Shown here piece after piece: positions 1,375-23,600 of a stretch of 41,410 nt of DNA (position 1 is its first letter; each line of letters starts with the position of its first letter). A program made the position numbers and the translations under genes. The notes under the pieces were generated by a model. The model saw nothing but the letters and a program-made list of their open reading frames with translations, was not told the DNA's origin and did not search any database. This stretch comes from Porphyromonas cangingivalis (GTDB lineage Bacteria; Bacteroidota; Bacteroidia; Bacteroidales; Paludibacteraceae). Where the stretch lies: NCBI GenBank assembly GCA_945902955.1, contig CAMDNO010000018.1, forward strand, positions 1-41,410, given 5' to 3'.

Positions 1375-1383
1375 AAATTGAGT

Positions 1384-3741
1384 ATGAAGATTTGGTTGCT
1401 TTCGTTTCTTCTTCTATCAAGCTTTTGGGTAAAAAGCGAATCCAAGTTGTCTTGGGATTCGCATTGGATAGCTCATCCGCAAGCTGATTTGCTCAATTAT
1501 GGCGTGTTTCATTTTCGAAAAACAGTAACATTGACCGAAAAACCCACTATATTTCGGGTGCATATTTCGGCAGACAATAAATTTAAACTGTTTGTAAATG
1601 GACAGTATGTAGCCTCGGGGTGTGTGTTGGGTGATGCCAATAATTGGTTTTACGATACCATCGACTTGGCACCATATTTAGTAAAGGGCGAAAATACGTT
1701 GGCTGCATTGGTTTGGAACTTAGGCAAGCAGAAAGGCGAAAACCAAATTTCTATGAAAACTGCATTTATTTTGCAAGCTGAAAATCCGACTCACAATGCT
1801 GTGAATACAAATAATACTTGGAGAGTGGAGCAGAATGAAGCCTATTCGCCAAAAGCGATTTTGCAAACTGATGAAACTGGCTATTTGCTAATTGGTTGTG
1901 GCGATTACATTCAGGGAAGTAAATATAACTGGAATTGGAAAACCTGTCCTACGGATAAATGGCATAATGCTAAAAACTTAGAGCATGGAAATCCAAAAGG
2001 CTTTGGTTCGGGTTGCACATGGGTACTAGCTCCACGTATGATTCCAATGTTGGACGAAAAAATGCTGCGATTTCCAGTTGTTCGAAGGTCAACAATGCCT
2101 GTAAATCAAGGATTTTTAAAAGGACAGCAAAAACTCAGCATTGATTCAAATTCCAAAGTAAGTATTTTACTTGACCAAACTACATTAATAAATGCATTCC
2201 CTACACTCATTTTTAGCAAAGGAAAAGGAGCTAAAATAACGTTTACCTATTGCGAATCCTTATTCGACAGCAAAAGACAAAAAGGCAACCGCAACGAAAT
2301 AGAAAATAAAACAGCCAAAGGACTAAAAGATGTAATTGTGGCAAGCGGTGATATAAATTGTGTGTTTCAACCCCTCGAATATCGCACTTACCGCTATTTG
2401 CAATTGGATATTATTACTGCTGATGAAAAATTGGTATTGGATAATTTACAACACACGGCTGTGGGATATCCTTTCCAAGAAAAAGCCAAATTTGTAAGTA
2501 ATGATAGTTCGTTGACAAAAATATGGAACGTGGGTTGGCGCACTGCTCGCCTTTGTGCCATGGATACATACATGGATTGTCCGTATTACGAGCGACTTCA
2601 ATATGTTGGCGACACTCGCATTCAGGCACTTATCTCACTTTATGTTTCGGGTGACGACCGACTCATGCGACAAGCCATATATATGCTCAACAGTTCTCGT
2701 TTTGGCGAAGGATTGACATTGAGCAGTTACCCTTCGAACGCAACGCAGAAAGTGATCCCACCTTTTTCACTTTTTTGGGTAGATATGATGTACGATTATA
2801 TCATGCTCCGACCCGATATAGATTTTGTTCGCCAATTTCTTCCCGGAATTTACGGTGTACTCGATTGGTACGAACAACACATTGATGCCAGAACAAGCAT
2901 GTTGGGCAGCACGCCTTATTGGAGTTTTGTGGATTGGGCAAAAGAATGGCCATGGGATAATAAAATTAAAGAAGGCGGTGTTCCAAAAGGTGGCGACGAT
3001 GGCGGTTCTAGCATTACTTCCCTACAGTTTGTTTATACTTTACAACATGCAGCTATCATTTTCGAAGAGCAAGGCAATCATCGTCAGGCAAAGTATTATA
3101 GTCAGTTAGCAGCAAAAATATCAAAAGCCGTTTATCAAAATTGCTGGGACGAAAAGCGGCAATTATTGGCCGATACGCCCGACAAAACAATTTTTAGTCA
3201 ACATGCCAATATTTGGGGTGTACTTACCAATACCATTCCTGCCAAGCAGCAAAAAGAATTGATGAACAAGGTTCTTAAAGATAAATCGCTCATTCAGAGC
3301 ACCTATTATTTTAAGTTTTATTTGGCTCAAGCCCTGTTTCAAGCCGGTATAGGCAATGAATATATTTCAATGCTCGAGCCTTGGAAGCAAGCATTAGCGC
3401 TTGGATTAACCACTTTCCCCGAGCAGCCTGAACCCACACGGAGCGACTGTCATGCTTGGAGTGCCAGTCCGAATTACGATTTATTAGCAACGGTGTGCGG
3501 AATAAGACCTATGGAGTTTGGTTTTAGGAAGGTTCGCATTGCGCCAAATCTTGGAAGCCTAAAGAACGCAGAAGCCAACATGCCGCATCCTAATGGCGAA
3601 ATTAAAGTGAAATTTGTACGCAAAGGCATTAATGGTATTGTTGCCGAAATAACTTTGCCAGCAAAACTAACCGGCGAATTTGTATGGAATGGGAAAGTGC
3701 GGAAATTATATTCAGGTGTAAATAAGGTTGAAATTTTGTAA
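1384..3741 (+). CDS. GH78 alpha-L-rhamnosidase, exported
   Basis: Predicted to remove terminal alpha-L-rhamnose from oligosaccharides. I chose the ATG at 1384 rather than a TTG 6 bases upstream because it starts directly with a signal peptide (MKIWLLSFLLLSSFWVKSES). Order of parts (785 aa): N-terminal beta-sandwich with a sugar-binding look (about 25-200, HFRKTVTL ... LFVNGQYVASG), a second beta domain (about 240-365), an (alpha/alpha)6 catalytic barrel (about 370-690) and a C-terminal beta domain. The GH78 active-site signature appears as DCPYYERLQYVGD (about 398-410); the family's more classical form has Arg and Trp here, but the YYE-LQYVGD variant is a familiar Bacteroidota form. WSFVDW and the later FPEQPEPTRSDCHAW segment (about 680-700) complete the barrel. 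There is no T9SS tail or lipobox, so it is probably periplasmic. Nothing in sequence alone fixes the natural glycan. Confidence 0.9.
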   Translation: MKIWLLSFLLLSSFWVKSESKLSWDSHWIAHPQADLLNYGVFHFRKTVTLTEKPTIFRVHISADNKFKLFVNGQYVASGCVLGDANNWFYDTIDLAPYLVKGENTLAALVWNLGKQKGENQISMKTAFILQAENPTHNAVNTNNTWRVEQNEAYSPKAILQTDETGYLLIGCGDYIQGSKYNWNWKTCPTDKWHNAKNLEHGNPKGFGSGCTWVLAPRMIPMLDEKMLRFPVVRRSTMPVNQGFLKGQQKLSIDSNSKVSILLDQTTLINAFPTLIFSKGKGAKITFTYCESLFDSKRQKGNRNEIENKTAKGLKDVIVASGDINCVFQPLEYRTYRYLQLDIITADEKLVLDNLQHTAVGYPFQEKAKFVSNDSSLTKIWNVGWRTARLCAMDTYMDCPYYERLQYVGDTRIQALISLYVSGDDRLMRQAIYMLNSSRFGEGLTLSSYPSNATQKVIPPFSLFWVDMMYDYIMLRPDIDFVRQFLPGIYGVLDWYEQHIDARTSMLGSTPYWSFVDWAKEWPWDNKIKEGGVPKGGDDGGSSITSLQFVYTLQHAAIIFEEQGNHRQAKYYSQLAAKISKAVYQNCWDEKRQLLADTPDKTIFSQHANIWGVLTNTIPAKQQKELMNKVLKDKSLIQSTYYFKFYLAQALFQAGIGNEYISMLEPWKQALALGLTTFPEQPEPTRSDCHAWSASPNYDLLATVCGIRPMEFGFRKVRIAPNLGSLKNAEANMPHPNGEIKVKFVRKGINGIVAEITLPAKLTGEFVWNGKVRKLYSGVNKVEIL

Positions 3742-3897
3742 GCAAAAAAAAAAAAAATCATCATTTATCCATTATCGAAATGAAATACTCACATTTGATT
3801 TTTTTAGTTGGATAATAAGTAATCTTGCTAAATGTGCAAGGAAATTATTCTACAACTTACAAGTTACTAATTGATTAAAACAAAGCATATTATTTTT

Positions 3898-6114
3898 ATG
3901 AAAAAAAGTTTTAAAGCTACTATACTAGTGCTGTTTTTTCTTGGCGGGAAAATGTACTCCGCTTCAACCAATATCGATTCCTTACTTTCGGTAATGACGC
4001 TCGACGAAAAAATTGGGCAAATGACACAAATGTGTTTTAGCACGATTACACTCGATGGAAGTAAATCGCTCGACCTGAATGTGGCTAATTTCAGGCAGTT
4101 GATTAAACAACAGCACATTGGCTCATTTTTGAGTGGTAGTGACAATTATGCCAAGTGGTTCGAATTTATTACGGCCATTCAAAAAGTGGCCGTTACCGAA
4201 ACCCGACTTGGCATTCCGCTTATCATTGGTATCGACCACGTACATGGTGCAAATTACATTAACGAAGGCACCATTTTTCCGCACAACTTAATGTTGGCTT
4301 GTAGTTTCGATAAAGCATTGTTGGAAAAAATTGCCAAAGTAACAGCTATCGAAACAGCACCTGTGGGACTTAGCTGGAATTTTGCGCCGGTGCTCGATGT
4401 GGGGCGCACACCGTACTGGCCACGCTTTTACGAAACTTTTGGCGAAGATACGCATGTTACGGCTGAAATGGGAAGTGCATTTATCAAAGCATACCAAAAT
4501 GTCCCCGAAATTGCACCTTATAAACTCGCAGCTTGTGCCAAACATTTTATTGGCTACTCTGACCCAAAATACGGTTTCGACCGTTCGCCTTCCGAAATTC
4601 CCATGCAAACGCTGCACGAAATTTTTGTGCCACCTTTCCAAAAAGCATTCCAAGCGGGTGTAAAAACACTGATGGTAAATAGTGGCGAGTTAAATGGCGA
4701 GCCTGTACATGGGTCAAAATTTTTGCTCGATACTTTGCTGCGTCAACATCTTGGGTTCGAGGGTGTAATTGTGAGTGACATCAAAGATATTGAGCGCATT
4801 GTAAAAATGCACCACACCGCTGCTACCGAAAAAGAAGCCACGCTACAAGCCGTGAATGCGGGCATTGATATGTATATGGCTTGCAATAACAGTGCTTTTA
4901 TAAAGGACGTAAATGAATTGCTTGCCGAAGGAAAACTATCAATATCGCAAATTGATGCTTCGGTGCGACGCATTCTGCTATTAAAAAAAGATTTGGGACT
5001 TTTCGAAAATCCTTATCCATTAAAGCAACTATTAGAAGCGGTAAATACGCTACAAAACCGTAAAGTAGCCTTGGAGGCTGCCGAAAAATCAATTGTTTTA
5101 TTAAAAAATGAAAATACACTTCCGCTCGATAAATCTAAAAAAATATTGTTGGCCGGCATAGGAGCCAATTCAAAACGTATGTTGAATGGCCCCTGGTCGT
5201 TTGACTGGATGGGTGCTGAAGAGGACTTGCAACCTAAAACGATGCGCACGCTTTTCGAAGCTTGCAAAAATACTTTTGGCGAGAAAAATGTGACTTTGTC
5301 AAAAACAGAACGTATTTTAGCTACAAAAGACAGCAAATCATTCCAAAAAGATGCGCGCAAAGCAGATGTAATAGTACTGGCGATTGGCGAACAACCCTAC
5401 AGCGAATTTATGGGGAATATCAATGACCTCACGCTCGATACCGACCAACTTGCATTGGTGGATGTGGCAATAGAAACTAAAAAACCGGTTGTGCTGGTGC
5501 TTATGGAGGGTCGTCCGCGTGTGATTACAAAGCAAGCTGCCGGTGCAGAAGCCATACTTTTTGCAGGTTATCCGGGCATCGAAGGTGCACAAGCAATTGC
5601 CAATATACTTTCGGGCAAAACAAATCCGTCGGCGCGTTTGGCTTTTTCCTATCCTTTAAGTGCAGGTCATACCATACCGTACAACTACAAACCGTCGGAA
5701 TACAACATTTACTGGAAACCCGACACGCTTCCAAAATGGTTATTTCCATTCGGTCACGGATTGAGTTATACCCAGTTTGAATACGCCGATATTCAACTTT
5801 CCGACTCCATAGTAAGTGCTATAGGAACAATAAAAGCAACGGTGAAAATTAAAAATACAGGAAAAATAGCAGGCACCGAAACTGCACTTTGGTACATCAA
5901 AGATGAAGTTGGTTCTATCTCGCGCCCGATAAAAATGCTCAAGCATTTCGAAAAAGTGGCATTAAATGCAGGAGAAGAAAAAATCGTAATTTTTGAAATT
6001 TCCGCTGCGGAACACCTTTCATTTCCCGATAAGAATGGAAAGAAACTGCTCGAAAATGGAGATTTTCAGCTGTTTATAGGCAATTTAACTCAGAAATTCA
6101 GTTTTAAAAAATAG
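3898..6114 (+). CDS. GH3 beta-glycosidase (BglX/ExoI-like), exported
   Basis: Glycoside hydrolase family 3 enzyme, probably a beta-glucosidase that trims imported oligosaccharides. The ATG at 3898 gives a clean signal peptide (MKKSFKATILVLFFLGGKMYS), preferred over a TTG 27 bases upstream. The 738-aa product has the TIM-barrel domain with KHFIGY (Lys-His about 215-216) and the nucleophile Asp about 294 in GVIVSDIKD. The second domain contains GEQPYSEFMG, whose Glu (about 503) aligns with the general acid/base of ExoI-type enzymes, and a fibronectin III-like domain ends the protein after FPFGHGLSYTQFEY. All catalytic features are present. There is no lipobox or sorting tail, so a periplasmic place is likely. 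The preceding 156-bp gap holds a 14-A tract; the next gene starts 3 bp after the stop, indicating co-transcription. Glucoside versus xyloside preference cannot be read from sequence. Confidence 0.92.
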   Translation: MKKSFKATILVLFFLGGKMYSASTNIDSLLSVMTLDEKIGQMTQMCFSTITLDGSKSLDLNVANFRQLIKQQHIGSFLSGSDNYAKWFEFITAIQKVAVTETRLGIPLIIGIDHVHGANYINEGTIFPHNLMLACSFDKALLEKIAKVTAIETAPVGLSWNFAPVLDVGRTPYWPRFYETFGEDTHVTAEMGSAFIKAYQNVPEIAPYKLAACAKHFIGYSDPKYGFDRSPSEIPMQTLHEIFVPPFQKAFQAGVKTLMVNSGELNGEPVHGSKFLLDTLLRQHLGFEGVIVSDIKDIERIVKMHHTAATEKEATLQAVNAGIDMYMACNNSAFIKDVNELLAEGKLSISQIDASVRRILLLKKDLGLFENPYPLKQLLEAVNTLQNRKVALEAAEKSIVLLKNENTLPLDKSKKILLAGIGANSKRMLNGPWSFDWMGAEEDLQPKTMRTLFEACKNTFGEKNVTLSKTERILATKDSKSFQKDARKADVIVLAIGEQPYSEFMGNINDLTLDTDQLALVDVAIETKKPVVLVLMEGRPRVITKQAAGAEAILFAGYPGIEGAQAIANILSGKTNPSARLAFSYPLSAGHTIPYNYKPSEYNIYWKPDTLPKWLFPFGHGLSYTQFEYADIQLSDSIVSAIGTIKATVKIKNTGKIAGTETALWYIKDEVGSISRPIKMLKHFEKVALNAGEEKIVIFEISAAEHLSFPDKNGKKLLENGDFQLFIGNLTQKFSFKK

Positions 6115-6117
6115 TTT

Positions 6118-8325
6118 ATGAAAAATCAAATTATCCTTTTATTCGTGTTATGTGCAAATTTTGCTTTAGTTGCACAGCCAACCGACAATCCCTACAAAAC
6201 TCAATACGGTAGTGCTGCACCTACATGGACTGACGAACTAAATTGGTCGCGCACGGTTTCAATTACCGATTTTAAACTTGCCGAAGAAACTTCGTGGGAC
6301 AATGCTTTGCAAAAAGCATTCGTTGCTTTAGGCGCAAACGGTGGAACGATCTTTTTTCCCACCGGAAGTTATGCCTTTGTGAACAATGTAGTTTTGCCCT
6401 CAAAAGTTATTTTACGTGGCGAAACACCTATACAAACCGATTCAAAATCAGATAGTTTTGCCCCCGCATCACGCCTTGTTTTTCCTAAATACGAACCTAC
6501 ATTTACCGGAAATGGCACCGACAACACCACTGCATTTAAGTCGATAACTACTACCGGCGATGTATTTAATTGCGGTATTGTTTATTTAGATATAAATCAT
6601 GCTAGAATAAGTATAGGTTCGTCGGCAAGTAAAAATATGTTGGTTTATGGAGTTCGTCAAAACAATGTGGCACAGCCCGATGCCGGCGTTCCGGATATGA
6701 CGTATATGAATGGTTGGCAGCGGTTTTCGTATCGCCACACTTACAATATTTCAGTTTATGCCGAAAGTTGTGCCTCCGTAACCCGTTGCCGTGTAAACGA
6801 TTTAATGAACAACACAGTACACCCTATTGCCGACGACAGTTACGACCAACCAAATTATATTGCCAAAGGAACCTATATTAATGGTGCCGAAAATCCGAAT
6901 GGTGCAACAGCGACTGGCTTAACAACAATAACCCATGGAGAACGTGCGCGGTTCGATTATCTGAACCATTACGGAATACGTGCCAACGGAAAAAGAATGA
7001 ATCCATCGGTGAATGCAGTTCCGATAAATCAGCAAATTGAGCTGATTGACAATTGGTTATACACCACCATGCGGGTGGGCTATTTTGCCGAAGCCATAGG
7101 AATTGTGGTGCGGGGGAATATCAAAAAGGACAAAACCGGTAAATTGGCATGGCTCGATGCTACCGGCAAAAGTTTAATAAGCTACAACGGCAATACACTC
7201 GAAAACCGTGCTCTGAATTTTGCAGGCGAAAATATTCTGATTGAAAATAACGATTTTGAAGTTACACGTCATAAAATGGTGAATACCAAATATTATTCAA
7301 CTGATGGCGAAGGAATTATGATACAGTGGCAGGATGCATGGGGATTTAATACGGCCGATGCCAATTCGGGCTACGGTGCACGAATGCGTGATATAACTAT
7401 TCGCAACAACAGAGTGACTGGTTATGTTGGCATTTATGATGTACAAGTTCCAATTAGTAATGTTACGATTTCAAACAATGATTTGCGAGCCAATGAAGAC
7501 ATTACGGGCAGAACCGATGGAATAATCATGATATTTAAAAAGGAAGCAAACCATCGTGTAGATAATTTATTTATTGAAAATAATACGAATATTTCAAACA
7601 TCAATATTGGTTATAAAAATGCTTCGAATGTGTACGAAATGCCCGGAAGCAATATTGTTGTGAGAAACAACACCGGCGTAAATAGAGCAGGTTTAAATGT
7701 TCCTTACCAAACCGTTGTACACGGAAATAGTTCATTTACTTCTGTAAGTTCATATACAACCGATTTGTTGCTGCCAATTGCGCAGGCGCCTTATCAAATG
7801 CAACACAGTACTGATGCAGCTGCGCCTGTTTTTGTGGAATTTAAAAAGGCCATCGAAGCCATAGACTTATCCAATATTAGCATCAAAAGAGCATCCGACA
7901 ATACAGTTTCGCCTTTAAATGCAGCTATAAATGGTTCGAAATTAGAGCTAACTCCTACTACAGCATTGCTAATAAACGATATCGACACGATAACAATTCC
8001 GGCAAACAGCATTCGGTTTGTGGGCGAAACGGAGGGCAACGCAATTATAAAATGGCATTTCAGAGTAGCTCAAAATTCGGCAACCGCCGTTTCGAAAACT
8101 GTTGCTGACAAAGCCTGTTCCTTTTATCCAAATCCGGCAAAAAGCATCCTGAACATTCGCATTGAAAACGCAGTACCAGTCCCATTATCCATAGTAAGCT
8201 TATCCGGAATTGAAGTAAGAAGAAAGCTGATTGTGAATGGTGAACAGCTTTTAGTATCAGATTTACCGAGAGGAATTTATTTGATAAAAATCGGAAATAA
8301 TACAGATAAACTGATAATTGAATGA
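6118..8325 (+). CDS. Secreted pectate-lyase-like beta-helix protein with T9SS tail
   Basis: A 735-aa exported protein (signal peptide MKNQIILLFVLCANFALVAQ). After a short lead with the motif WTDELNWS comes a pectate_lyase_3-type start (about 60-110: GANGGTIFFPTGSYAF, then LPSKVILRGETP), then a long right-handed beta-helix rich in N-N-turns (IENNDFEV, IRNNRVTGY, ISNNDLRA) including the motif DGEGIMIQ. The last ~75 residues form a T9SS type A sorting domain (SFYPNPAKSILNI ... GIYLIKIG), so the protein should be surface-attached or released. It is a paralogue of the product at 33283-35697, sharing the NWS lead, the GETP turn and DGEG(I/V)-Q. Expected activity is a polysaccharide lyase or hydrolase on an acidic or rhamnose-rich glycan; I cannot assign a CAZy family. 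It is 3 bp downstream of GH3 and the fourth gene of the operon. Confidence 0.8.
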   Translation: MKNQIILLFVLCANFALVAQPTDNPYKTQYGSAAPTWTDELNWSRTVSITDFKLAEETSWDNALQKAFVALGANGGTIFFPTGSYAFVNNVVLPSKVILRGETPIQTDSKSDSFAPASRLVFPKYEPTFTGNGTDNTTAFKSITTTGDVFNCGIVYLDINHARISIGSSASKNMLVYGVRQNNVAQPDAGVPDMTYMNGWQRFSYRHTYNISVYAESCASVTRCRVNDLMNNTVHPIADDSYDQPNYIAKGTYINGAENPNGATATGLTTITHGERARFDYLNHYGIRANGKRMNPSVNAVPINQQIELIDNWLYTTMRVGYFAEAIGIVVRGNIKKDKTGKLAWLDATGKSLISYNGNTLENRALNFAGENILIENNDFEVTRHKMVNTKYYSTDGEGIMIQWQDAWGFNTADANSGYGARMRDITIRNNRVTGYVGIYDVQVPISNVTISNNDLRANEDITGRTDGIIMIFKKEANHRVDNLFIENNTNISNINIGYKNASNVYEMPGSNIVVRNNTGVNRAGLNVPYQTVVHGNSSFTSVSSYTTDLLLPIAQAPYQMQHSTDAAAPVFVEFKKAIEAIDLSNISIKRASDNTVSPLNAAINGSKLELTPTTALLINDIDTITIPANSIRFVGETEGNAIIKWHFRVAQNSATAVSKTVADKACSFYPNPAKSILNIRIENAVPVPLSIVSLSGIEVRRKLIVNGEQLLVSDLPRGIYLIKIGNNTDKLIIE

Positions 8326-8396: not shown

Positions 8397-10736
8397 ATGC
8401 CAATTTTTAAAAAGTGTCTTGTTATTTCTGTTTTATCAGTTTTCGCAGCTGTTTCAACAGCCCAATCGTACGAAACCGAATTTCAAGCCCGTGCCCAACA
8501 AATTATCAATTACGTAGCCGACGACTACAAAGCCGATGCTTCAGGCTGGTACAATTGCAATCCTTCCGATTATGGCAAGTACAACTGGCAAATTGCCGTA
8601 GCTTGTTTTCATAAATATGGTGTTACAAATGCCAAAGGAAATCAATATCTACCGCATTTTAATAATTCTACTTGCATACAGGCACGATTCCACTTTAATT
8701 TAGCGGGCGAAACCTATCTATTTTCAAATTACTGGGGAGCGCCTTCGGTAAAATCGACTGTAAAAAATTACCTGACAGCTGCGTGGAATAGAAACGATAG
8801 TTATAATCTATTTATGTCCGAAGGAACGGAAAACCACATTGCTATGACGCGTCCTGCCGCTTATTTGTATGCACAAATTGCACGCGACAGTTTTCCTACC
8901 GATTTTCCGGATGCACAACAAAAATTAGATAGCGCAAAACTCTGGATAATGGAATGGGCAAAAACGTTGTACACTGCCGGATTGGGAGAATGGAATTCGA
9001 GCACTTATGCGCCTTACGGCATGATTGGCTGGATTGCTTTGTACGACGGAGCCAAAGACCCCGAAGTGCGAAAAGTGGCGCAGGCTGTACTCGATTATTA
9101 TGCTTGCGAAATGGCTTTGCACTACACTCAGGGCATTGTGGGCGGCTACGAATCGCGTAACGGAACAGGCTACGAAAGCGTGGTAAGCGGTAGTGATTAT
9201 TTTTCGTGGCTTTGGTTTGGAGAGAGCCCGCGTAAAATCTCGTGGGCAGTTGGCACTCAAAATGTAGAAGCTTCGACAGCAGTTTATGCGGCTGTTTCGG
9301 ACTATCGACCACCTTTGGCAGCTGTAAAATTGGCAAAAAAACAATTGACCAAAAATGCGATGTACTACAATAGCAAAGGCGAATACCTAATGAACAATCC
9401 CGGAGCGGTAAAACAGACTTTTTACATTGGCAACACCTATACGTTGGGAGCCGCTTATTTACCTTACGGCGGTTTTACAGGTGGCGATTCCCAATTTCAG
9501 GCCTGGAAATTTGTTGGTAAAGTAACTCCCGACGAAACAAATGCAGCTAAAACAGCCAACGTCATCGTAGGTTATGGTTCAAAAGAGTGGAACAAAGCAC
9601 GTCATCGCATGCCTTGGGACCAATTGGTGCATCACCGCAATGTGCTGGTACAACTCACCAAAGTTCCTGCTAATTACAATGCGATTTATGCTCAAATACA
9701 AACCATTATCAATAATTGGAAAACGAGTTGGGCAACCGATTTCAACCAGCGTTTCCCGAACGATGGCAAGGGAAATCCTGTTAATATGTCGGCGGATGTT
9801 AGTAACGCTAATTTTTCGTACATGGCGGTATGGAAAAAAAATGCTACTGTAAACCGTTTACTTCGCAACAATATTGAGTTTTACGAAATGGACAGTAACT
9901 ACGTGGCTATACGTTCCATTGCTCAAACTGCACCAACTTACGCCAGCGTTACCGACAATTATGCGCTGAAAGATGCTGCCCCGCAAGGTAATTTGTGTGG
10001 ATTGATACTGGAAGTGGGTTCGAAAAAAGAATATGCCTCGTTTGTGGTATTTCAGGATGCGATTATTGATAATTCTTCGCTCAATAAAACCAATATTTCA
10101 GCTGACAACATTGTATACACTTCGGCAAAAGGAGATGTGTTGAACATACAATACAATTCATCGGGCACATTTACGGAACCGCTTTACGACTGGGGATATG
10201 GACCCGTTACGCGTCAGCTTGCTCAAAAATCACCACCCTTTATTCAACCTACATGGCCAACTGGTGAGGGTTTTGGTCGTATTGCATCGTGGTCGGTTAA
10301 TGGCACTTCGGTTGATATGACAAATTCGAAATGGAGTGTGTACGATGGACCAAATTTACAGTTAAAAAATAGCATTTTACGAATAAACGATGGACTGACG
10401 CAAGCATTTGAGATTGATTATACAGGTACTTTGCCCGTATATAAATCTGGTAACTACGCAAGCATTGCCAAAAACAAAGTGAATCAGGATAGCTTTAAAA
10501 TTTATCCAAATCCGGCGACTAACTTGTTAAATATTGAACTTTATTCGACCTACACAGGCAGTTATCTGGTGGAATTATTCGACCTCAGCGGCAAATCGGT
10601 TTTAATGTTGTCCAACCAAAAAACATCGAGCATGGAGTTAGTTCAACTGCCATTATCCAAGAAACTGAAAGGATTGTTTTTGCTAAAAGTAAAAACGGGT
10701 AATAACACCTTTACGAAGAAGATACAAATTTACTAA
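8397..10736 (+). CDS. Secreted protein of unnamed helical family, candidate glycan-cleaving enzyme, T9SS tail
   Basis: A 779-aa protein I do not recognise. Residues 1-22 are a signal peptide (ending VSTAQ). Residues 25 to about 470 are rich in aromatic-studded helices spaced like an alpha/alpha toroid, followed by a mostly beta part (about 480-690), the layout of several lyase and hydrolase families. Conserved blocks shared with the product at 38475-40748: SYETEFQARAQQI (24-36), TENHIAMTRPAAYLYA (144-159), YTAGLGEWNSSTY (192-204), SDYRPP (301-306). The C-terminus (about 700-779) is a T9SS type A sorting domain (KIYPNPATNLLNIEL). It follows the beta-helix gene by 71 bp and ends the + strand gene cluster, 4 bp from the convergent susC stop. 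The enzyme role is inference from fold-like layout and neighbours; Glu, Asn and His in the TENH and EWNS blocks are the first residues to consider as catalytic. Confidence 0.75.
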   Translation: MPIFKKCLVISVLSVFAAVSTAQSYETEFQARAQQIINYVADDYKADASGWYNCNPSDYGKYNWQIAVACFHKYGVTNAKGNQYLPHFNNSTCIQARFHFNLAGETYLFSNYWGAPSVKSTVKNYLTAAWNRNDSYNLFMSEGTENHIAMTRPAAYLYAQIARDSFPTDFPDAQQKLDSAKLWIMEWAKTLYTAGLGEWNSSTYAPYGMIGWIALYDGAKDPEVRKVAQAVLDYYACEMALHYTQGIVGGYESRNGTGYESVVSGSDYFSWLWFGESPRKISWAVGTQNVEASTAVYAAVSDYRPPLAAVKLAKKQLTKNAMYYNSKGEYLMNNPGAVKQTFYIGNTYTLGAAYLPYGGFTGGDSQFQAWKFVGKVTPDETNAAKTANVIVGYGSKEWNKARHRMPWDQLVHHRNVLVQLTKVPANYNAIYAQIQTIINNWKTSWATDFNQRFPNDGKGNPVNMSADVSNANFSYMAVWKKNATVNRLLRNNIEFYEMDSNYVAIRSIAQTAPTYASVTDNYALKDAAPQGNLCGLILEVGSKKEYASFVVFQDAIIDNSSLNKTNISADNIVYTSAKGDVLNIQYNSSGTFTEPLYDWGYGPVTRQLAQKSPPFIQPTWPTGEGFGRIASWSVNGTSVDMTNSKWSVYDGPNLQLKNSILRINDGLTQAFEIDYTGTLPVYKSGNYASIAKNKVNQDSFKIYPNPATNLLNIELYSTYTGSYLVELFDLSGKSVLMLSNQKTSSMELVQLPLSKKLKGLFLLKVKTGNNTFTKKIQIY

Positions 10737-10740
10737 AAGC

Positions 10741-13700
10741 CTAAAAAACAACACTTACACCGAAATTCAGCGTTGCAATTCCTGAATTAAGGCCCACATT
10801 TCCGGGCGAAAGATTGGCATCGGCTCCTGCTGCACCTCCCGAAACTTCGGGGTCGCCGTCTTTAAATTTCGAAAAGGTGAGCAGATTTTGTGCCTGAAGT
10901 TGTAAGTTGACCGATTTAGCATAAATCTTTGCCGCCATATTTTTAGGCAAGCTGTAGTTTATCAACACATTGCGCAGCCTCAGATATGATCCATCAACCA
11001 GATAACGAGTACTTTCGCGTCCTGACATGATAGAGTTGTACAGTAATGGAATCTGACTTTGTTTATTTTCCGGCGTCCAATATCCTTCTATTGATTTAAG
11101 TTTGTTTTGAATGTCGTAGGTCGAAACGTAACTGTTTTGGCGCATGCCTGAATGATACAACCAATTGCCGGTTTGAAACGAAAACAGGAACGAGAGTGTC
11201 CAGTTTTTGTAGGTAAACAAGTTATTAATACCACCGTGCATCGTCGGATATGGTGTTTTGTCGGTTATCAACACCCGCTGATTTCGATATTCAGCCGCCG
11301 TTAGCAGTTCGGCATCCAATGTATTTCCTGTTTTTGTTTTGTTTGGTTCGGTTCCCGCAACTTCGTAAATCAATTCATGCCCTGTTTCGGGGTCAACACC
11401 CGCCCACAAGGGTAAATAATAAAGTGCCAAAGGATAGCCCGAATAAACGCGGTTCACACCTTTTTCAATAAATGGCTGTTGAGCTGATAGTTGTAGAACT
11501 TTACTGCTAAAATGTGAAATATTAAATTCCGTTTTCCATTTCAGAGTCGATTGTAAATTATCCGTTGTGATATTAAAATCGAAACCTTTGATGTTCATAA
11601 TTCCCGAATTTACAGTTACATCTGTACTAAAATAGCCCTGAAAAGTTCCGATATTGTAATTGATAAGTAAGTCGTTACTCCTTTTGTAATAAAAATCAAG
11701 GGTGGCTGAAATCCGGTTCTTTAATATCGAGATATTAGCTCCTGTGTTTAGCTGAATTTGTTTTTCCCATTGCACATCGGGGTTTGCAATGCGGTCGAAT
11801 ACAAAGCCCGGACTTCCGGCATATTCAGCCCAATTTAACACCCTCGATTCAGCAGGGAAATTACCTACTTCGGCATTGCCTACATAACCATAACCTGCGC
11901 GTAATTTGAGGTAGTCGATAGTCTCTATGCTCTTTACAAATTCTTCGGAACTTGCCAACCAGCTGACACCCAAACCGGGGAAAAATCCCCAACGATTATG
12001 TGGTGTAAACCGCGATGTAGCATCTGCACGTGCATTTAATTCCACAAACCATTTGTCGTCGAAAGCATATTGCGAACGGTTAAAAAACGACAGAAAACGA
12101 TAACCATCCATACCTGCCGACTGTAGCGTATATACTTTTTCGGTATTGGCATTTGTCAACTCAAAATAATCTGTCGGAAAGCCTTCGTATCGGGCTACAT
12201 TAAAATCGCTGTTGAATGATTGAATGTTGTTTCCGAGCATCACCTTTAGCTTATGCCTGCGCGACAAATCGGCTGTATAATTCAGTACATTGTTTCCGTT
12301 AATGCCGTAATTTAATGTGCGGGCATATAGTATTATACCACTTTTTGTGGGGTCGATGGCTTCGTCTTCGCGGTAAAAATCCTTCGACTGAAAGTTACGG
12401 TATCTACGCGTTCCGGGCGTAAAGCTCCAATCGGAACGGAATGTGAAATTATTTAAAAAACGTACTTCACCATAAACAGTCAAAATGCCATTCAAATCAA
12501 TATTGTCGTCCCAAGTTTCATTCATTCTGTAAATTGGATTTGCCCCTTTTTTGTCATTAATATTTCGGGCATCGAACAAACTTCCCGAACCATCTGGAGC
12601 ATGAACCGGTAAAAGTGAGGAACGGTTAAGTAGCAAGTTGACAGATGTATAGGTTGAATTATTCCACAAATTTATTACAAAATTGGATGATACCCCGGCT
12701 TTAATAAACTTTGTGATATTGTAGTCGTTTTTCAACAACAAAGTGATTCGTTCGGTGGATTTGTCTTTTATAAAGTCATTGTTCGTTCGGTAAGATAGGC
12801 TAATCAGGTGCTTGTTTTGGCTCTGCTCGCCTTGTAATGCAATTCTAAATTCACTGTATAGCATTGGCTGATTTACTTCATTTAACCAATCAGTACCTTT
12901 AGGCTGTTGTAGCAGATACGAATTTAACCAGCCTCGGTTATAGCCTTTGAAGTTTGTATAATCCGAAGAAAATGGAAAATACTTGGTAGGACTTGAATCA
13001 GAAAACTGTTTTCTCTCTGGATATCGGTTGTAATATGCGTTGTCGATAACCTTAAGCAATTCAGAGCCCGTAAAGAACTCAGGCTTGTTAATTAAATAGT
13101 TTAAGCCAGTTTTTAAATTAACTGTCAGTTTTGAAGGCATATCAAAGTCACCCGATTTGGTTGTTACTAAAATAACCCCATTCGAAGCCCTTGAGCCGTA
13201 AATAGCACCCGAAGCAGCATCTTTCAAAAATTCGACTGACTCAATATCATCCGGATTTAAGTCTTTAAGTGTCAGACTTTGTGGCACGCCATCCACCACA
13301 ACCAAGGGTTCTGCAATGGAATTAATCGACGATACGCCTCTCACCCGAAAGCGATCATTAGTGGCATATACGCCAGATACATTTCCCTGTATAGCTGTGC
13401 CTAAATCCCCGCCTATTGCATTTTTCAAAATGCGTTCAGGAAGGGAAGCTATAGAACCAGTAATTTCTTTTGTCTTTAATTTACCATAACCAACAACCAT
13501 TAAATCATTGAGCAGAAAGGTATTACTCCGCATAACAACACTCAAAGCAGTACTTTTAATTTCGGTGATTTTTTGTGTACGGTAGCCTAAAAGTACCAAC
13601 GAGAGTATGGAATCCCGTTCTGTTTTTAAAAAGCGGAAATTACCATTCTCGTCGGAAATTGCCTTTAATGCGTTTGCTTGATTAATTAAACATACTCCCT

Positions 13701-14115
13701 GAAGCGGCATTTTAAGATCGTCAACCACTTTTCCGTTTATCCAAAAAACCTGTTCGGAAGAGGATGGTATTTCATTTTTTGCCAAAGAAAGAAAAATAAA
13801 ATAATCAACCAGTTTAAACTCAATTTTCAGCGAAGGGAGTAACTGATTTAATGTTGCGGTTAACGTTCCGTTTTGAATGTTAAGTGTAACCTGTTGTTTA
13901 TCGCTTATTTCGGTTGTATTATACACAAAAACCACATCCCATTTTTTTTCAACCACATTCAGTATTTCTTTAAGTGGAGTATTTGTAAAACTCAACGTAA
14001 AGGTTTTTCCGTTCGTTTGAGAATAAACCATTTGCACTAAAAAAAGCAAAGTAGAGATAAACCAAACTTTATAGTTTGATGAATTGTTGTTTTTTATATT
14101 TCTCTTTGTCAACAT
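10741..14115 (-). CDS. susC: SusC-like TonB-dependent outer-membrane transporter with STN domain
   Basis: Imports oligosaccharides across the outer membrane using TonB energy, capped by the SusD lipoprotein. The 1124-aa product has a signal peptide (about 1-33, ending VQMVYSQ), an STN domain (about 38-110, FTNTPLKEILNVVEK), a carboxypeptidase-regulatory-like Ig domain (about 123-200, INGKVVDDLKMPLQGV), a plug with the SusC signatures VVVDGVPQSL, DIESVEFLKDA and AIYGSRASNGVILVTTKSG (about 270-330), and a 22-strand barrel ending in the aromatic VSVVF. STN domains usually pass a signal to an anti-sigma/ECF-sigma pair, but none is encoded in this window. It starts 9 bp after the susD stop and so is the second gene of a susD-susC operon, the reverse of the normal order. 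Intact; substrate unknown. Confidence 0.95.
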   Translation of the reverse strand: MLTKRNIKNNNSSNYKVWFISTLLFLVQMVYSQTNGKTFTLSFTNTPLKEILNVVEKKWDVVFVYNTTEISDKQQVTLNIQNGTLTATLNQLLPSLKIEFKLVDYFIFLSLAKNEIPSSSEQVFWINGKVVDDLKMPLQGVCLINQANALKAISDENGNFRFLKTERDSILSLVLLGYRTQKITEIKSTALSVVMRSNTFLLNDLMVVGYGKLKTKEITGSIASLPERILKNAIGGDLGTAIQGNVSGVYATNDRFRVRGVSSINSIAEPLVVVDGVPQSLTLKDLNPDDIESVEFLKDAASGAIYGSRASNGVILVTTKSGDFDMPSKLTVNLKTGLNYLINKPEFFTGSELLKVIDNAYYNRYPERKQFSDSSPTKYFPFSSDYTNFKGYNRGWLNSYLLQQPKGTDWLNEVNQPMLYSEFRIALQGEQSQNKHLISLSYRTNNDFIKDKSTERITLLLKNDYNITKFIKAGVSSNFVINLWNNSTYTSVNLLLNRSSLLPVHAPDGSGSLFDARNINDKKGANPIYRMNETWDDNIDLNGILTVYGEVRFLNNFTFRSDWSFTPGTRRYRNFQSKDFYREDEAIDPTKSGIILYARTLNYGINGNNVLNYTADLSRRHKLKVMLGNNIQSFNSDFNVARYEGFPTDYFELTNANTEKVYTLQSAGMDGYRFLSFFNRSQYAFDDKWFVELNARADATSRFTPHNRWGFFPGLGVSWLASSEEFVKSIETIDYLKLRAGYGYVGNAEVGNFPAESRVLNWAEYAGSPGFVFDRIANPDVQWEKQIQLNTGANISILKNRISATLDFYYKRSNDLLINYNIGTFQGYFSTDVTVNSGIMNIKGFDFNITTDNLQSTLKWKTEFNISHFSSKVLQLSAQQPFIEKGVNRVYSGYPLALYYLPLWAGVDPETGHELIYEVAGTEPNKTKTGNTLDAELLTAAEYRNQRVLITDKTPYPTMHGGINNLFTYKNWTLSFLFSFQTGNWLYHSGMRQNSYVSTYDIQNKLKSIEGYWTPENKQSQIPLLYNSIMSGRESTRYLVDGSYLRLRNVLINYSLPKNMAAKIYAKSVNLQLQAQNLLTFSKFKDGDPEVSGGAAGADANLSPGNVGLNSGIATLNFGVSVVF

Positions 14116-14124
14116 TACTCCCTG

Positions 14125-15735
14125 TTATCTTTCTAAAGCTGTATTATAAAGGTATTCGTTTTCGGGAATCAAACAATACAAACGATTGTTATTCCAATGA
14201 ATCAAACTCTCGGCTGTATTAATTTTTCTATTACCCATCGGTATAAATCCTGATTTGTAAGGTTCCGGAAGATATTCAGCTACTGGACTATCGCTCAACG
14301 ATGCTAATCGAAGATTATCCCAACGGCGAACGTTTTCGAAACAGAGCTCGCGACTACGTTCATCAATAATCGTTTTCATTAAACTGTTTTTACTAATACC
14401 GTTGCCAATTTCGTCCAAACCTGCTCTAGCCCGAATAAGATTTAACTCTGACACAGCATCCTGTAATTTATTTATATGTACGTAAATTTCGGCACGCATC
14501 AAATGAAATTCGGCAGCACGCAGCCAAATAATATTAGATGTAGGATATGCATATTTAAGTGTGGTCCACTGTCCTGCTGGTGCTTCCTTACCCTGATTGC
14601 GGGTAACATACATCATTTGCCTGAAACGAACATCCATGGAAGTATCTCCCTGCAACATTCTTATTACAAGCGAACTGTCAATTACCAATCGAAATTTTGA
14701 TTGTGTAACATCACCATTTTGTAAGTTTTTAAAAGCCGTCCACTGAAACCCATTCCAACGCGATGAGATAGTAGGCAAAAATGCACTATTACCATGAAAA
14801 CCCATGATAATCTCCGAATTATTGCCTGCCTGAAAGTTGGTTTTGTCAACAATTTGAAAAAGACGTGCATAACTTGTCCCCGACTGCAAAGGAAACAAAG
14901 TGGACGACCCTTTCGTATTTCCCAGCAATTTATTTACATAAATAAGTGCCGAATCGAAATCGTTTTTTTGAAAATAGACTTTTGCCAGCATGGCAGTTGC
15001 CACATTGCGCTTACAGCGAAATTGGTAAGCTGTAGGATGAATGGATTTATCAAACTTTTCGGGTATTAATATTTCAGCCTGTTTCAAATCATCTATAACA
15101 AAGCGATACACCTGCGCTACCGTTTTACGTGGTTCAGGCATGTCTTCAAAGCTAAGTATTGGTTTCTTACGATACAAGGTAGAGGGTGAATTGAGTGTCG
15201 AAACATGGAATTGCCTGCCTATGTAAAAATTATTGTAAAATTCGCAGGTGGCACGCATCAAAAAAGCCTCACCGAGCAATCTGTCGGCATTCAGTGAATC
15301 ATTTTTTGTTTTTAGTGTAGGTAGTTCTTTCTCTATTGACTGAATCACTACATTGCAATTGTTGTTGACAAACGACGTCCATTGCATAAGTATACCTGCC
15401 TGATAATCATCATAATTGCAATTATAGTTGAAAAAATAATTCAGGGTGTTTTTTCCCGAAAAATCAGGAATAACTGTGGTGTTGAGGGTATTTGTAATTT
15501 CATCAGAACCAAGCATTTGGGACAAAGCAAGTGTGCCAAAATATAAATTGGAACTAAACGCTCCGTAAGCTCCATTGACACACACATCCAAATCGCTCAG
15601 ATTGTAAAGCAGCGATTCAATACTCTGATTGTTTTCATTACGTATCGACGACAAAAAATCGCTGCAAGCACTTAGTAAAAAGAGCATTGCACCGATAATT
15701 GTATATCGTATAAACCCATAAAAGTTATAACTCAT
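14125..15735 (-). CDS. susD: SusD/RagB-like outer-membrane glycan-binding lipoprotein
   Basis: Surface lipoprotein that binds glycan and forms the lid of the SusC transporter. The 536-aa product has a lipoprotein signal peptide with lipobox LLSAC (Cys 24) followed by SDFLS. Family features: the N-terminal segment on loss of which TPR helices follow (LLGEAFLMRATCEFYNNFYIG), and the C-terminal RagB/SusD region (IIWLRAAEFHLMRAEIYVHIN, then ELNLIRARAGL and ERSRELCFENVRRWDNLR). It is first in the transcription unit, with a perfect Bacteroidota promoter only 35 bp upstream, and susC follows after 9 bp. Length is normal for the family. The glycan bound cannot be deduced; SusD sequences diverge with substrate. 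Confidence 0.95.
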   Translation of the reverse strand: MSYNFYGFIRYTIIGAMLFLLSACSDFLSSIRNENNQSIESLLYNLSDLDVCVNGAYGAFSSNLYFGTLALSQMLGSDEITNTLNTTVIPDFSGKNTLNYFFNYNCNYDDYQAGILMQWTSFVNNNCNVVIQSIEKELPTLKTKNDSLNADRLLGEAFLMRATCEFYNNFYIGRQFHVSTLNSPSTLYRKKPILSFEDMPEPRKTVAQVYRFVIDDLKQAEILIPEKFDKSIHPTAYQFRCKRNVATAMLAKVYFQKNDFDSALIYVNKLLGNTKGSSTLFPLQSGTSYARLFQIVDKTNFQAGNNSEIIMGFHGNSAFLPTISSRWNGFQWTAFKNLQNGDVTQSKFRLVIDSSLVIRMLQGDTSMDVRFRQMMYVTRNQGKEAPAGQWTTLKYAYPTSNIIWLRAAEFHLMRAEIYVHINKLQDAVSELNLIRARAGLDEIGNGISKNSLMKTIIDERSRELCFENVRRWDNLRLASLSDSPVAEYLPEPYKSGFIPMGNRKINTAESLIHWNNNRLYCLIPENEYLYNTALER

Positions 15736-20648: not shown

Positions 20649-23600
20649 TTATTTTATTATCACTCTTGTTGTTAACTCTTTGCCATTTTCCGATACCCGA
20701 ACTACATATACACCAGTTTGCAGTTTGTAGTTTACAGTTTGCAGTTCAGCGGTTGTTTGTCCTTTCTCAAGCATCATGCCTACTGCATTGTACACAGCAT
20801 AGTTTGCTTTTTCGGGAGCTACAATTGTTATCCGGTTGGCAGCATTTACAAATACTTGTGCATTGAGTTTTTCAACTGTGTTTACTCCTGTGGCAGCGCC
20901 TGGTGCACGGAATAGCAAGCTGAAACGGTTAGCATTGGCTGCTGTAATTGGAGCACTAAAGTTGTAAGCCGTTTCGGGTGTAAGTTCCACTTCGGTAGTT
21001 GGGTATTTTGTGTCTTTTAGGATTACGCGTGTACCTGTTTCGAAGTTCGAAAATTCGCTTAACGAAAAGCTAAAATCACCTGCTGTGCGTGTGCTAAAAC
21101 CTACTGGGATTTCGGTATTATATTTCACAGTGCTCATGCTATTGATAGCTAAATTTTTTGCGTCGGCTACTGTGTAAATATCAGCCATATCGGTTACATT
21201 GTTCATCATTTTAGGCGAATCGTACACATCGTACAAATCTGCGGCATTGGCATCGAAAACGATTAAAGCTTCGTCGGCTCTTGTGCCGAAAGATACTTGC
21301 AAACGTAGTTTTTTGCGATCAGCACTTTTTGTAGCAGGTGCTTTGAGTGGATTGCCAGTTTGGTGCGAACGCATATCGTTTGTAAACTGAATACTTCCGG
21401 TTTCTTTTGCCAACACCCAAAATGCTTGCATAGGAGGAATTATTCCACCATTAGCAATGGAAGGAACCGCTTCGCCAGTGATAGGATTGTATGTTACAAA
21501 CGACCAACCGGTTGCATTTGAACCGCTCGAATTGGTACGATACCAAATAGAAGCATCAATTTTTGCTGCATTTGCAGTAGCGAAAGCAGATGTCCAACTC
21601 AAATGCGAAGGATAAGGATTGCCAATAAGGTTATATCCTTTGCCCGAAGTAGCATCCGATGTATACGTAATTGGAATTGTAACATTTCCTGTATTTAATG
21701 TACCACCACTTTGGGTAGTAAATGTAATAGGAACGCCAGCTGTAGATGGCAAGGCAATATATCCTTTACCTGCAACTAAACCTGCTCCAGCGCTTACCGA
21801 TACCCAACCAAGATTGGAAAGCGATTCGTCGCGGCGATAATAGGTATATCCTGCTGGTGCATTAGCATTACTTACAGGGCTCGAAACATACCAGTTACGT
21901 GTTGTAGCTAAGTATTGCTCTACATTGGTTGTGCCAGTTACTGTTAGCGTACCAGTTCCTTCAGGTACATACGTTGATGTGCCGTTGGTAGCATGACTTT
22001 TCAGTGTAAGGTTTGTAAGTATAAGTGTTTGACCTGTTGGTACAGTAAGTTTTGCACCACCATTTACGGTAATGGAACGAACAGTTTTACCTGTGTTTAC
22101 AACTAACTCACCCGAAGTGATTGTTACATCTGTATTTGCTAATTCTGTATCTGTAAGTCCTAATGCGGTTATATCTCCACCTATTTTATTGGCAGCGGCA
22201 GCAGTAACAGTTCCATTATATGTTGCATAAGTAATATTATAATTGCTTTCCAAAAAGCCATTAGAACCTGTTGCCAACGATGGTGTAACAGTGTATGCGG
22301 CTCCTGCTGCTGTTGCTGCCGAAAGTCCGGCTGCATCTGGAGTTAAAGTAACGCTTGTTACTGCTTCGCTGCCTACGCCTGTAGCTCCTGCTGTAAAATT
22401 AGTGGCACTTGCACCAGCGGTTAATGTCGTTCCGTAAATCTTAGAAGGACCTGTGGCAGTAATGGTTAATGCCACTTTGGAAATGCTAAACGTATAATCA
22501 GCCGAAGTGGCTGCATTGTTATTTGCAGTTGATGTTGCACTTGCAACCACTTTATAATTACCTGCATTAGTTGGTGCTGTAGCTGAAGAATAAGCTACAC
22601 CATCTGTATTGGTATATAACAATGATGTTGTACCATCGGCACTATAAGAAATTGTAGCGGGACCTTGTGCAGCTCCAGTGTAAGTAAAACTTTGTGTACC
22701 CGAAACCGAAATACTTGGACTTGCCTTGGAAATAGTAAATTCGGTAGCGATTGAACTGGCAGAATTAAATGCTCCATTAGCTGCCACAGTGGCTGTTGCA
22801 GTGTAAGTGCCTGCATTTGTTGGTAAAGTAGCGCTTTCAGTGTATGATGTTCCACCTGTTCCTACATAACTGAAAGTATAACTTGTACCAGTTCCAGTGT
22901 TAGTAGCAGCAATTGGGCCTTGAGGATTACCATTGTAAGTATAAGTGCCAATAGGAGTAACAGTTACCGTTGGGGTAGACAGACCACCACTAACCGCTTG
23001 CGACTCATACGCACCCATATCTATTAACGAATTATAAACACGAGCACTTCCAGCAATATCAGTTGTGCCATTACCACTACCATTTCCAGCATCCTTACAT
23101 ACTGAAGTTGCCTCTAAATTCCAATTGGCTGAAGTAACAGAAGCAGGAATTACGGCGTTATAACCAGTAACTCCAGAAGGCGAAACAAAACCAGCAGCAG
23201 TATTTGTGTTAGCTAATGCGATATTAGTACCTGAATTACTTGCCATATTGATGGCGTTGTAGGTCATAGACGATAGAATAGTAAAATTTTCAACTGCACC
23301 ATTATTACTAAAAATATTATTGGTGGCAATTAAATAAGTTGGTGAGATGTCAATACCAGTTTTAGCTATAAATATATTTTTACTTTCATTGTTTGCAATA
23401 GTATTATTTGTAAGCGTTACTGTTTTGTCATCTGTATTTAACAATCCAACCAGAATTCCTTCTTTGGCGTTGTTGTAGATTGCACAGTTTGATATGGTTA
23501 CGTTAGCTCCTAAGGCCAAGTAATCAGCAACTGGATAACTAGTGCTAACCTTCCCAACAAATATTCCACCACCTACACCATTTGTGCTATTATTATAAAT

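Follow-up and report, generated by a model that had tools for sequence, protein, structure and literature searches.

Polysaccharide lyases (PLs) that join an alpha/alpha toroid to an antiparallel beta domain are known from families PL8, PL12, PL15, PL17, PL21, PL23, PL33, PL35 and PL39. In those that use an Asn as neutraliser, roughly one helical hairpin separates this residue from a Tyr. The pairs N240/Y294 (PL12), N192/Y246 (PL35), N201/Y258 (PL17), N186/Y239 (PL39), N336/Y390 (PL15 exoHep), N183/Y242 (PL8) and N236/Y299 (PL23) are given in Table 4 of PMC12088678; PL33 shares the toroid-plus-beta fold and employs N238, Y291 and H444, with an Asn-Tyr spacing of 53 (PMC11848413). From these published residues, the spacing across Asn-using toroid lyases was computed to be 53-63. 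Here, we describe two proteins of Porphyromonas cangingivalis, P0001 and P0002, whose family has in common with these lyases a helical-then-beta layout and an Asn and a Tyr at a comparable distance, but differs from them by the lack of any sequence or profile match, by a Glu-x-x-(Ser)-x-x-Tyr block, and by an Arg located 50 residues after the Tyr. Both are encoded in a stretch of 41,410 nucleotides, hereafter the window, which is the entire contig C18 of a draft genome (4.5 Mb, 87% complete):

8397..10736, forward strand: P0001, 779 residues, family member with a signal peptide, a helical toroid-like domain (about residues 22-313), a beta-rich domain and a type IX secretion system (T9SS) type A sorting tail (Pfam and NCBIfam scans and helical-domain model; the beta part comes from a low-confidence full-length model)
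10500..10730, forward strand: T9SS sorting domain of P0001, residues 702-778 (PF18962, 50.4 bits, E 2.9e-13)
38475..40748, reverse strand: P0002, 757 residues, second family member with a signal peptide and without T9SS tail

The two proteins and their relatives are promising as a candidate new family of enzymes. Our favoured reading, held with moderate confidence, is that P0001 and P0002 cleave uronate-containing glycans by beta-elimination, as poly- or oligosaccharide lyases. The substrate is probably a glycan containing rhamnose and uronate, such as pectic rhamnogalacturonan or a similar polymer.

Homology of the pair and extent of the family

P0001 and P0002 share 22% identity over 539 columns (BLASTP, E 5e-15). 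An earlier note on this DNA, made from the sequence alone, had claimed homology over about 400 residues, which is thus real and longer than proposed; both open reading frames exist exactly as it gave them, and the sequence blocks it named are recovered in the alignments, with EN-H reading EN-F in P0002. It had also called the pair duplicated. The two are indeed homologous, but a recent duplication is not supported, since the tree (computed without the partial L001_3, L051, L129, L130 and L138) does not group P0001 and P0002 exclusively with each other, a Nostoc protein and L015 falling within their clade (clade support 0.97). The family is far wider than the pair. The Nostoc protein groups with P0002 with a support of 0.87, and the inner node joining L015 to the P0002/Nostoc group has a support of 0.01. 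Because orthologues of both proteins co-occur in two loci (L001 and L003), the pair consists of two old lineages kept together.

The export of both proteins, also announced earlier, is consistent with their signal-peptide-like starts (judged by eye) and, for P0001, with the T9SS tail. No such tail was found in P0002, where the three frames of DNA around the stop contain no tail motif; its L003 orthologue does have one. With an end (window positions 38475-38560) devoid of a tail, P0002 may remain periplasmic and P0001 be surface-sorted.

The description of the family as unrecognised holds with regard to Pfam, NCBIfam and PDB sequences. Neither Pfam nor NCBIfam recognises a catalytic domain in these proteins, P0001 matching by its T9SS tail only and P0002 not at all, and PDB sequence searches with both returned no credible match apart from the sorting tail. 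The family profiles A1 and A4 likewise matched no PDB sequence at E <= 10 (hmmsearch). In the published literature covered, from which CAZy itself and most subscription journals were outside, nothing was found tied to these sequences.

At the order level, P0001 (residues 1-690) matches 3 of 295 genomes, its own included, and P0002 matches 2 of 295. At the phylum level, profile matches were obtained in 11 of 395 genomes, and in 12 of 390 with a broader profile, both counts including the own genome. The named relatives of P0001 come from Paludibacter and Porphyromonadaceae metagenome-assembled genomes. Three further tandem members, with open frames of 895, 898 and 630 residues, are present in the same P. 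cangingivalis genome on contig C27 (L139, 3441-10700), where the trio adjoins a SusC-like gene. In plasmid records, tblastn with three queries matched 13, 56 and 199 entries, with hosts that include rhizobia, Rhodobacterales, Gammaproteobacteria, Clostridia, cyanobacteria, Streptomyces and Haladaptatus; among the matches listed (13, 20 and 20), annotated features read 'hypothetical protein', once with O-antigen ligase in addition, and many are unannotated. No relatives were found in four viral-contig scans.

Three subgroups, which we designate window-like, 'DTENHW' and rhizobia-like, join over 514-519 columns with hhalign probabilities of 99.2-100% in both directions. The same method was applied to sets of Hepar_II_III_N, PL8, PL5 and GH88 proteins, drawn from 8 of 11, 4 of 5, 14 of 20 and 12 of 20 loci, respectively, and reduced to 8, 4, 11 and 11 once frames shorter than 300 residues had been removed. 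Because the subgroups join and these four toroid sets do not, the members constitute, on sequence grounds, one two-domain family that is not visibly a branch of any of the four, spans Bacteroidota, Pseudomonadota, Clostridia, cyanobacteria, Streptomyces and haloarchaea, and has no name in Pfam or NCBIfam. Membership of the Hepar_II_III_N-type, PL8, PL5 or GH88 families was rejected, no significant profile match being obtained; PF16889, PF08124 and PF05426 were not matched in Pfam scans of family members, nor PF07470 in those of P0001 and P0002.

Conserved residues and predicted fold

The most conserved blocks map as follows:

8829..8837, forward strand: P0001 E145-N146-H147 codons (EN-H block, with N146 predicted to neutralise the carboxylate); N in 28/28, E in 27/28 and H in 24/28 rows
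8988..9008, forward strand: P0001 E198-W-N-S201-S-T-Y204 codons (EWNS..Y block, with Y204 predicted to act as base/acid); E198, S201 and Y204 in 28/28 rows
9156..9158, forward strand: P0001 R254 codon; 28/28 rows
40221..40229, reverse strand: P0002 E174-N175-F176 (EN-F replacing EN-H)
39963..39983, reverse strand: P0002 E256...S259...Y262 block
39795..39797, reverse strand: P0002 R318

The row counts refer to a 28-row alignment in P0001 numbering, from which L004 (cut by a contig end) and L030 were left out and in which Leu157 is also invariant. The EN-H and EWNS blocks had been put forward earlier as the best catalytic candidates; this is supported, N146, E198 and Y204, and R254 in addition, being present in all 28 rows. 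His147, however, is not invariant, and neither is Ser201 beyond the 28 rows. The members from 14 plasmid loci (five of them already counted among the 28 rows) all carry the Asn, Glu198, Tyr and Arg, together with S201 in 13 cases and H147 in 12; the Streptomyces member has Ala in place of Ser201. The four residues are also present in eight of eight further rows, one of which repeats a locus of the 28, and one of which, L129, has its Asn placed by alignment only, as has L030 from the same locus, where no clear EN-H block is seen. The contig C27 trio, one member of which is also among the eight further rows, likewise carries all four residues (3/3), with H147 in two (EN-I in the third) and Asn at position 201 in all three.

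The distance from Asn to Tyr is 58-61 residues in 24 of the 28 rows (58 in P0001), within the range of 53-63 of the Asn-using toroid lyases, which suggests that the pair could be catalytic here as well. The distance from Tyr to Arg is 49-50, save in the P0002 lineage (56). A similar pattern occurs in three PF16889 proteins (L059-L061), which, among 21 lyase-locus frames scanned, show G-N-H-L-L-F and G-x-x-x-E-L-D-P-H-Y motifs and whose E..S/D..Y context resembles that of the family. In the best local alignment between the family and Hepar_II_III_N, which is not significant, N-H falls on N-H, Ser201 on Asp, and Tyr on Tyr. We interpret this likeness as one of active-site pattern, not of membership.

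Residues 21-335 of P0001, modelled by AlphaFold2 with eight sequences, are all helical, with a predicted local distance difference test score (pLDDT) of 62.9 and a predicted template-modelling score of 0.74. The helical-then-beta layout that had been read from the sequence is supported, and the helical domain, at this moderate model confidence, is likely an alpha/alpha toroid, for which we claim no nearest family. Among the ten helices of the model, N146 is found at the beginning of the fifth (145-165), Y204 stands just before the seventh (205-218) and R254 before the ninth. Because helix ends face one rim in an alternating toroid, the three residues would lie on the same rim if the hairpins alternate and can thus share a cleft, as far as helix topology indicates.

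In structural comparisons of the helical-domain model, the first Foldseek rows were exo-glucosaminidases and a GH105 enzyme, while VIA-align ranked first the human uronyl epimerase DS-epi1 (6hzn, Z 11.7, root-mean-square deviation 4.0, 268 residues aligned), and second the chondroitinase 9o3q (Z 11.1, deviation 4.4, 266 aligned); the absence of a structure from the VIA-align list was not taken as evidence. The PL27 enzymes BACCELL_00875 and BT0263 are toroid lyases acting on Rha-GlcA glycans, and 5noa (BACCELL_00875) aligns to the model with a Z of 9.4. However, PL27 has an N-terminal beta-sandwich, according to PMC8377490, whereas the window proteins begin with the helical domain, and the family has no sequence match to 5noa. 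By sequence, PL27 and the other lyases represented in the PDB (e.g. 5noa, PL35) were discarded, no family-profile match being obtained at E <= 10.

Gene neighbourhoods and the proposed reaction

Many family members reside, as do many toroid lyases, in degradative loci with GH88/GH105-type genes. We inspected 14 plasmid loci, hand-picked for breadth of genera, and hence not random, from the tables of 13, 56 and 199 records, of which the last two were listed to 20 rows each. PF07470-type genes, which in relatives and controls were searched with a local HMM built on fetched GH88 proteins and with BLAST seeds instead of Pfam, occur within the retrieved DNA at 10 of these loci (L053, L054, L055, L056, L058 and L142-L146). 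These are all the plasmid loci with a member of 820-900 residues, and the gene lies directly downstream of it in nine; KduI with KduD is found in four of the ten and GH28 in four. Rhizobiaceae account for five of these loci, so the independent lineages number about four. Control DNA from four of the same records (four 50-kb stretches, 200 kb) contained no PF07470 gene; the KduD seed matched at 29-37% in two of these stretches (related dehydrogenases), while the KduD calls beside family members are at least 52% identical and each near KduI.

In the phylum of the window, a PF07470 gene is present in four of 18 stretches (L002, L003, L047 and L049). Orthologues of both proteins are accompanied in L003 by a PF07470-type (GH88/GH105) gene, SusC and SusD, and in L001 by no PF07470 gene within its stretch; L002 combines the P0001 orthologue with GH28-, PF07470- and GH3-type genes. 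The Thioclava locus contains an L-rhamnose mutarotase gene, and the GH28 neighbour of the Rhizobium PF07470 gene is the polygalacturonase PglB according to NCBIfam. This PglB-BglB pectin pair of Agrobacterium and Rhizobium (NCBIfam names) has, in Rhizobium binae, a family gene directly upstream, annotated as 'hypothetical protein'. Two cyanobacterial plasmid members (L050, 7500-10257, and L051, 8010-9762) directly follow a gene for O-antigen ligase; their context is biosynthetic, unlike the degradative loci elsewhere.

The Asn/Tyr signature, and the fact that other members are linked to PF07470 genes and to KduI/KduD, lead us to favour elimination over hydrolysis, and to amend in this sense the earlier proposal of a glycan-cleaving lyase or hydrolase. 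We propose that a uronate occupying the +1 site would have its carboxylate bound and neutralised by Asn146, assisted by Arg254 and perhaps by Glu145 or Glu198, which would lower the pKa of the C5 proton. This proton would be taken, and/or the leaving oxygen protonated, by Tyr204, together with His147 in members that have it, or with a beta-domain His in other subgroups. Breakage of the 4-O bond would create a new non-reducing end that carries a 4,5-unsaturated uronate; a PF07470-type (GH88/GH105) unsaturated uronyl hydrolase would then remove this sugar for metabolism by KduI and KduD. More tentatively, and as a reading somewhat less likely than not, the whole could form a large cross-domain, unnamed family of uronate-eliminating toroids with an Asn-Glu-Tyr-Arg catalytic core, in which the second His of classical toroid lyases is optional, being present in many rhizobial and DTENHW members and lost in the window lineage. 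On this reading, many pectin or rhamnose-uronate operons that now start with a 'hypothetical protein' would have in this family the first enzyme they lack.

Several observations weigh against elimination by a lyase. The hhalign comparisons with the Hepar_II_III_N, PL8, PL5 and GH88 sets gave probabilities of at most 2.0% (at most 1.3% for the PF16889, PF08124 and PF05426 sets alone, and at most 2.0% for GH88), with reversed controls at or below 0.7%. The neutraliser is Arg in the PL15 alginate lyase, Glu in PL21 and Asp in one PL8 enzyme (Table 4 of PMC12088678). Within the family, the Asn-Tyr distance is 87 in the P0002 lineage (an insertion, three rows) and 49 in the Nostoc protein, and His147 is Phe in the P0002 lineage. 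In toroid lyases, the beta domain supplies a catalytic His; in the family, two beta-domain columns commonly hold a His (15/28 and 19/28), and neither P0001 nor P0002 has one there. The full-length AlphaFold2 model is of low confidence (pLDDT 42), leaving the beta domain without a usable model. For the helical domain, none of 274 Foldseek matches reached E <= 0.001, and VIA-align, which sets a level of about 13 when the model is helical, gave a best Z below it; the third to sixth rows (glucanase-type and GH105, Z 10.6-10.2) tie with the second, and lower rows include toroids of many functions as well as non-carbohydrate enzymes, among them a terpene synthase at Z 9.3. Regarding gene content, no PF07470 gene was found in the window (Pfam scans of its products), in 14 of the 18 stretches of its phylum, or in the plasmid loci L050 and L051 (cyanobacteria), L052 (Haladaptatus) and L057 (Streptomyces). 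Finally, NCBIfam labels the rhizobial PF07470 partner 'beta-galactosidase BglB'; the best PDB matches of this Rhizobium protein (L053, 10460-11554) are GH105 entries, and the label may be misleading. The tied fold ranking, and the use of neutralisers other than Asn by some toroid lyases, slightly lower our confidence in a lyase and in the more novel reading, and the dehydratase and hydrolase rivals are rated slightly higher.

The main rival, which we regard as unlikely, is a uronate dehydratase, in which the same elimination would expel water from O4 of a terminal uronate and so prime it for GH88/GH105 enzymes. Two unrelated dehydratases feeding unsaturated uronate to such enzymes have been described in PMC8511951 (P29_PDnc) and PMC12269599 (BcGDH, formerly GH154), the direct pairing of family and PF07470 genes fits such a function, and GH154-type structures appear in VIA-align (8oi4, Z 9.8; 9o4u, Z 9.5), albeit as one of many types at similar score. 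On the other hand, the two-domain helical-plus-beta layout with its Asn/Tyr pair suits lyases better, and the published active-site residues differ from those of the family, these same sources proposing Asp248 and Lys303 for P29_PDnc, where Y306F is still active, and two Tyr and an Arg for BcGDH. Slightly less probable still is an alpha/alpha-toroid glycoside hydrolase with E198 and another acid as catalysts: E198 is invariant and many VIA-align rows are hydrolases (e.g. GH105, GH76), but the only acids conserved in at least 27 of 28 rows are E198 and E145, D233 being present in 24, and elimination is the better fit both to the Asn/Tyr/Arg set and to the linked genes. A DS-epi1-type uronyl C5-epimerase, which would remove and return the C5 proton and cleave no bond, seems very improbable despite the first rank of DS-epi1 in VIA-align and the two cyanobacterial plasmid members in a biosynthetic setting, given that window, rhizobial and marine members occupy degradative loci with transporters, most of them with PF07470 genes.

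If the lyase reading is correct, the family would explain the opening elimination step in many acidic-glycan operons of root-nodule bacteria, marine Rhodobacterales and Gammaproteobacteria, a Clostridia plasmid and Paludibacter-like Bacteroidota, and pectin-type or rhamnose-uronate glycans could be cut with an enzyme of a new kind. It would also put to the test the idea that toroid lyases can function with their Asn/Tyr apparatus in the absence of a beta-domain His.

The locus surrounding P0001 and P0002

The window reads as a polysaccharide-utilisation locus, and eight of its 17 gene-sized products carry a T9SS tail above the curated Pfam/NCBIfam cut-off. The other features are:

1378..3741, forward strand: alpha-L-rhamnosidase, six-hairpin (PF17389)
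3871..6114, forward strand: GH3
6118..8325, forward strand: 735-residue T9SS protein, fold not recognised; sorting tail and weak Big_5 match (Pfam/NCBIfam)
10741..14115, reverse strand: SusC/TonB-dependent receptor
14125..15735, reverse strand: SusD-like protein
20649..24278: beta-helix candidate, narrowly under the Pfam Beta_helix cut-off (25.4 vs 25.9 bits)
28851..30329: beta-helix protein, above the Pfam Beta_helix cut-off (28.1 vs 25.9 bits)
30504..33137, reverse strand: GH3 with PA14
33283..35697: 804-residue T9SS protein
35722..37089, reverse strand: BNR-type beta-propeller-like T9SS protein, with weak family matches, homologous to the family of 37134..38465
37134..38465, reverse strand: BNR-type beta-propeller-like T9SS protein adjoining P0002, with BNR matches under the cut-off and a weak xyloglucan hydrolase match

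Two large Big_7/CBM_4_9 proteins are also encoded. The earlier note had placed a GH3 and a pectate-lyase-like beta-helix on each arm of the window; the GH3 genes are indeed on both, and a beta-helix passes at 28851-30329 and narrowly misses at 20649-24278, but the 6118-8325 product beside P0001 shows only its tail and the weak Big_5 match.

P0002 adjoins two propeller-like genes, and likewise, in seven of nine stretches of the DTENHW clade (L038-L041, L043, L044 and L046), genes of one cluster adjoin the family gene; the three of these neighbours that were scanned match Sortilin/BNR propeller models above cut-off. In some loci, the cluster genes lie between tandem family copies. Beta-propeller folds have been described for gum-arabic and ulvan lyases (PMC8377490), and by analogy, it is possible that the propeller partner acts on the same glycan as the family member.

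Homologues of the 6118-8325 product adjoin family members in L002 (49%) and L003 (83%). The 33283-35697 product is 76% identical to its L001 counterpart and has a weak match to the mannuronan C5-epimerase AlgE4 (E 3e-4).

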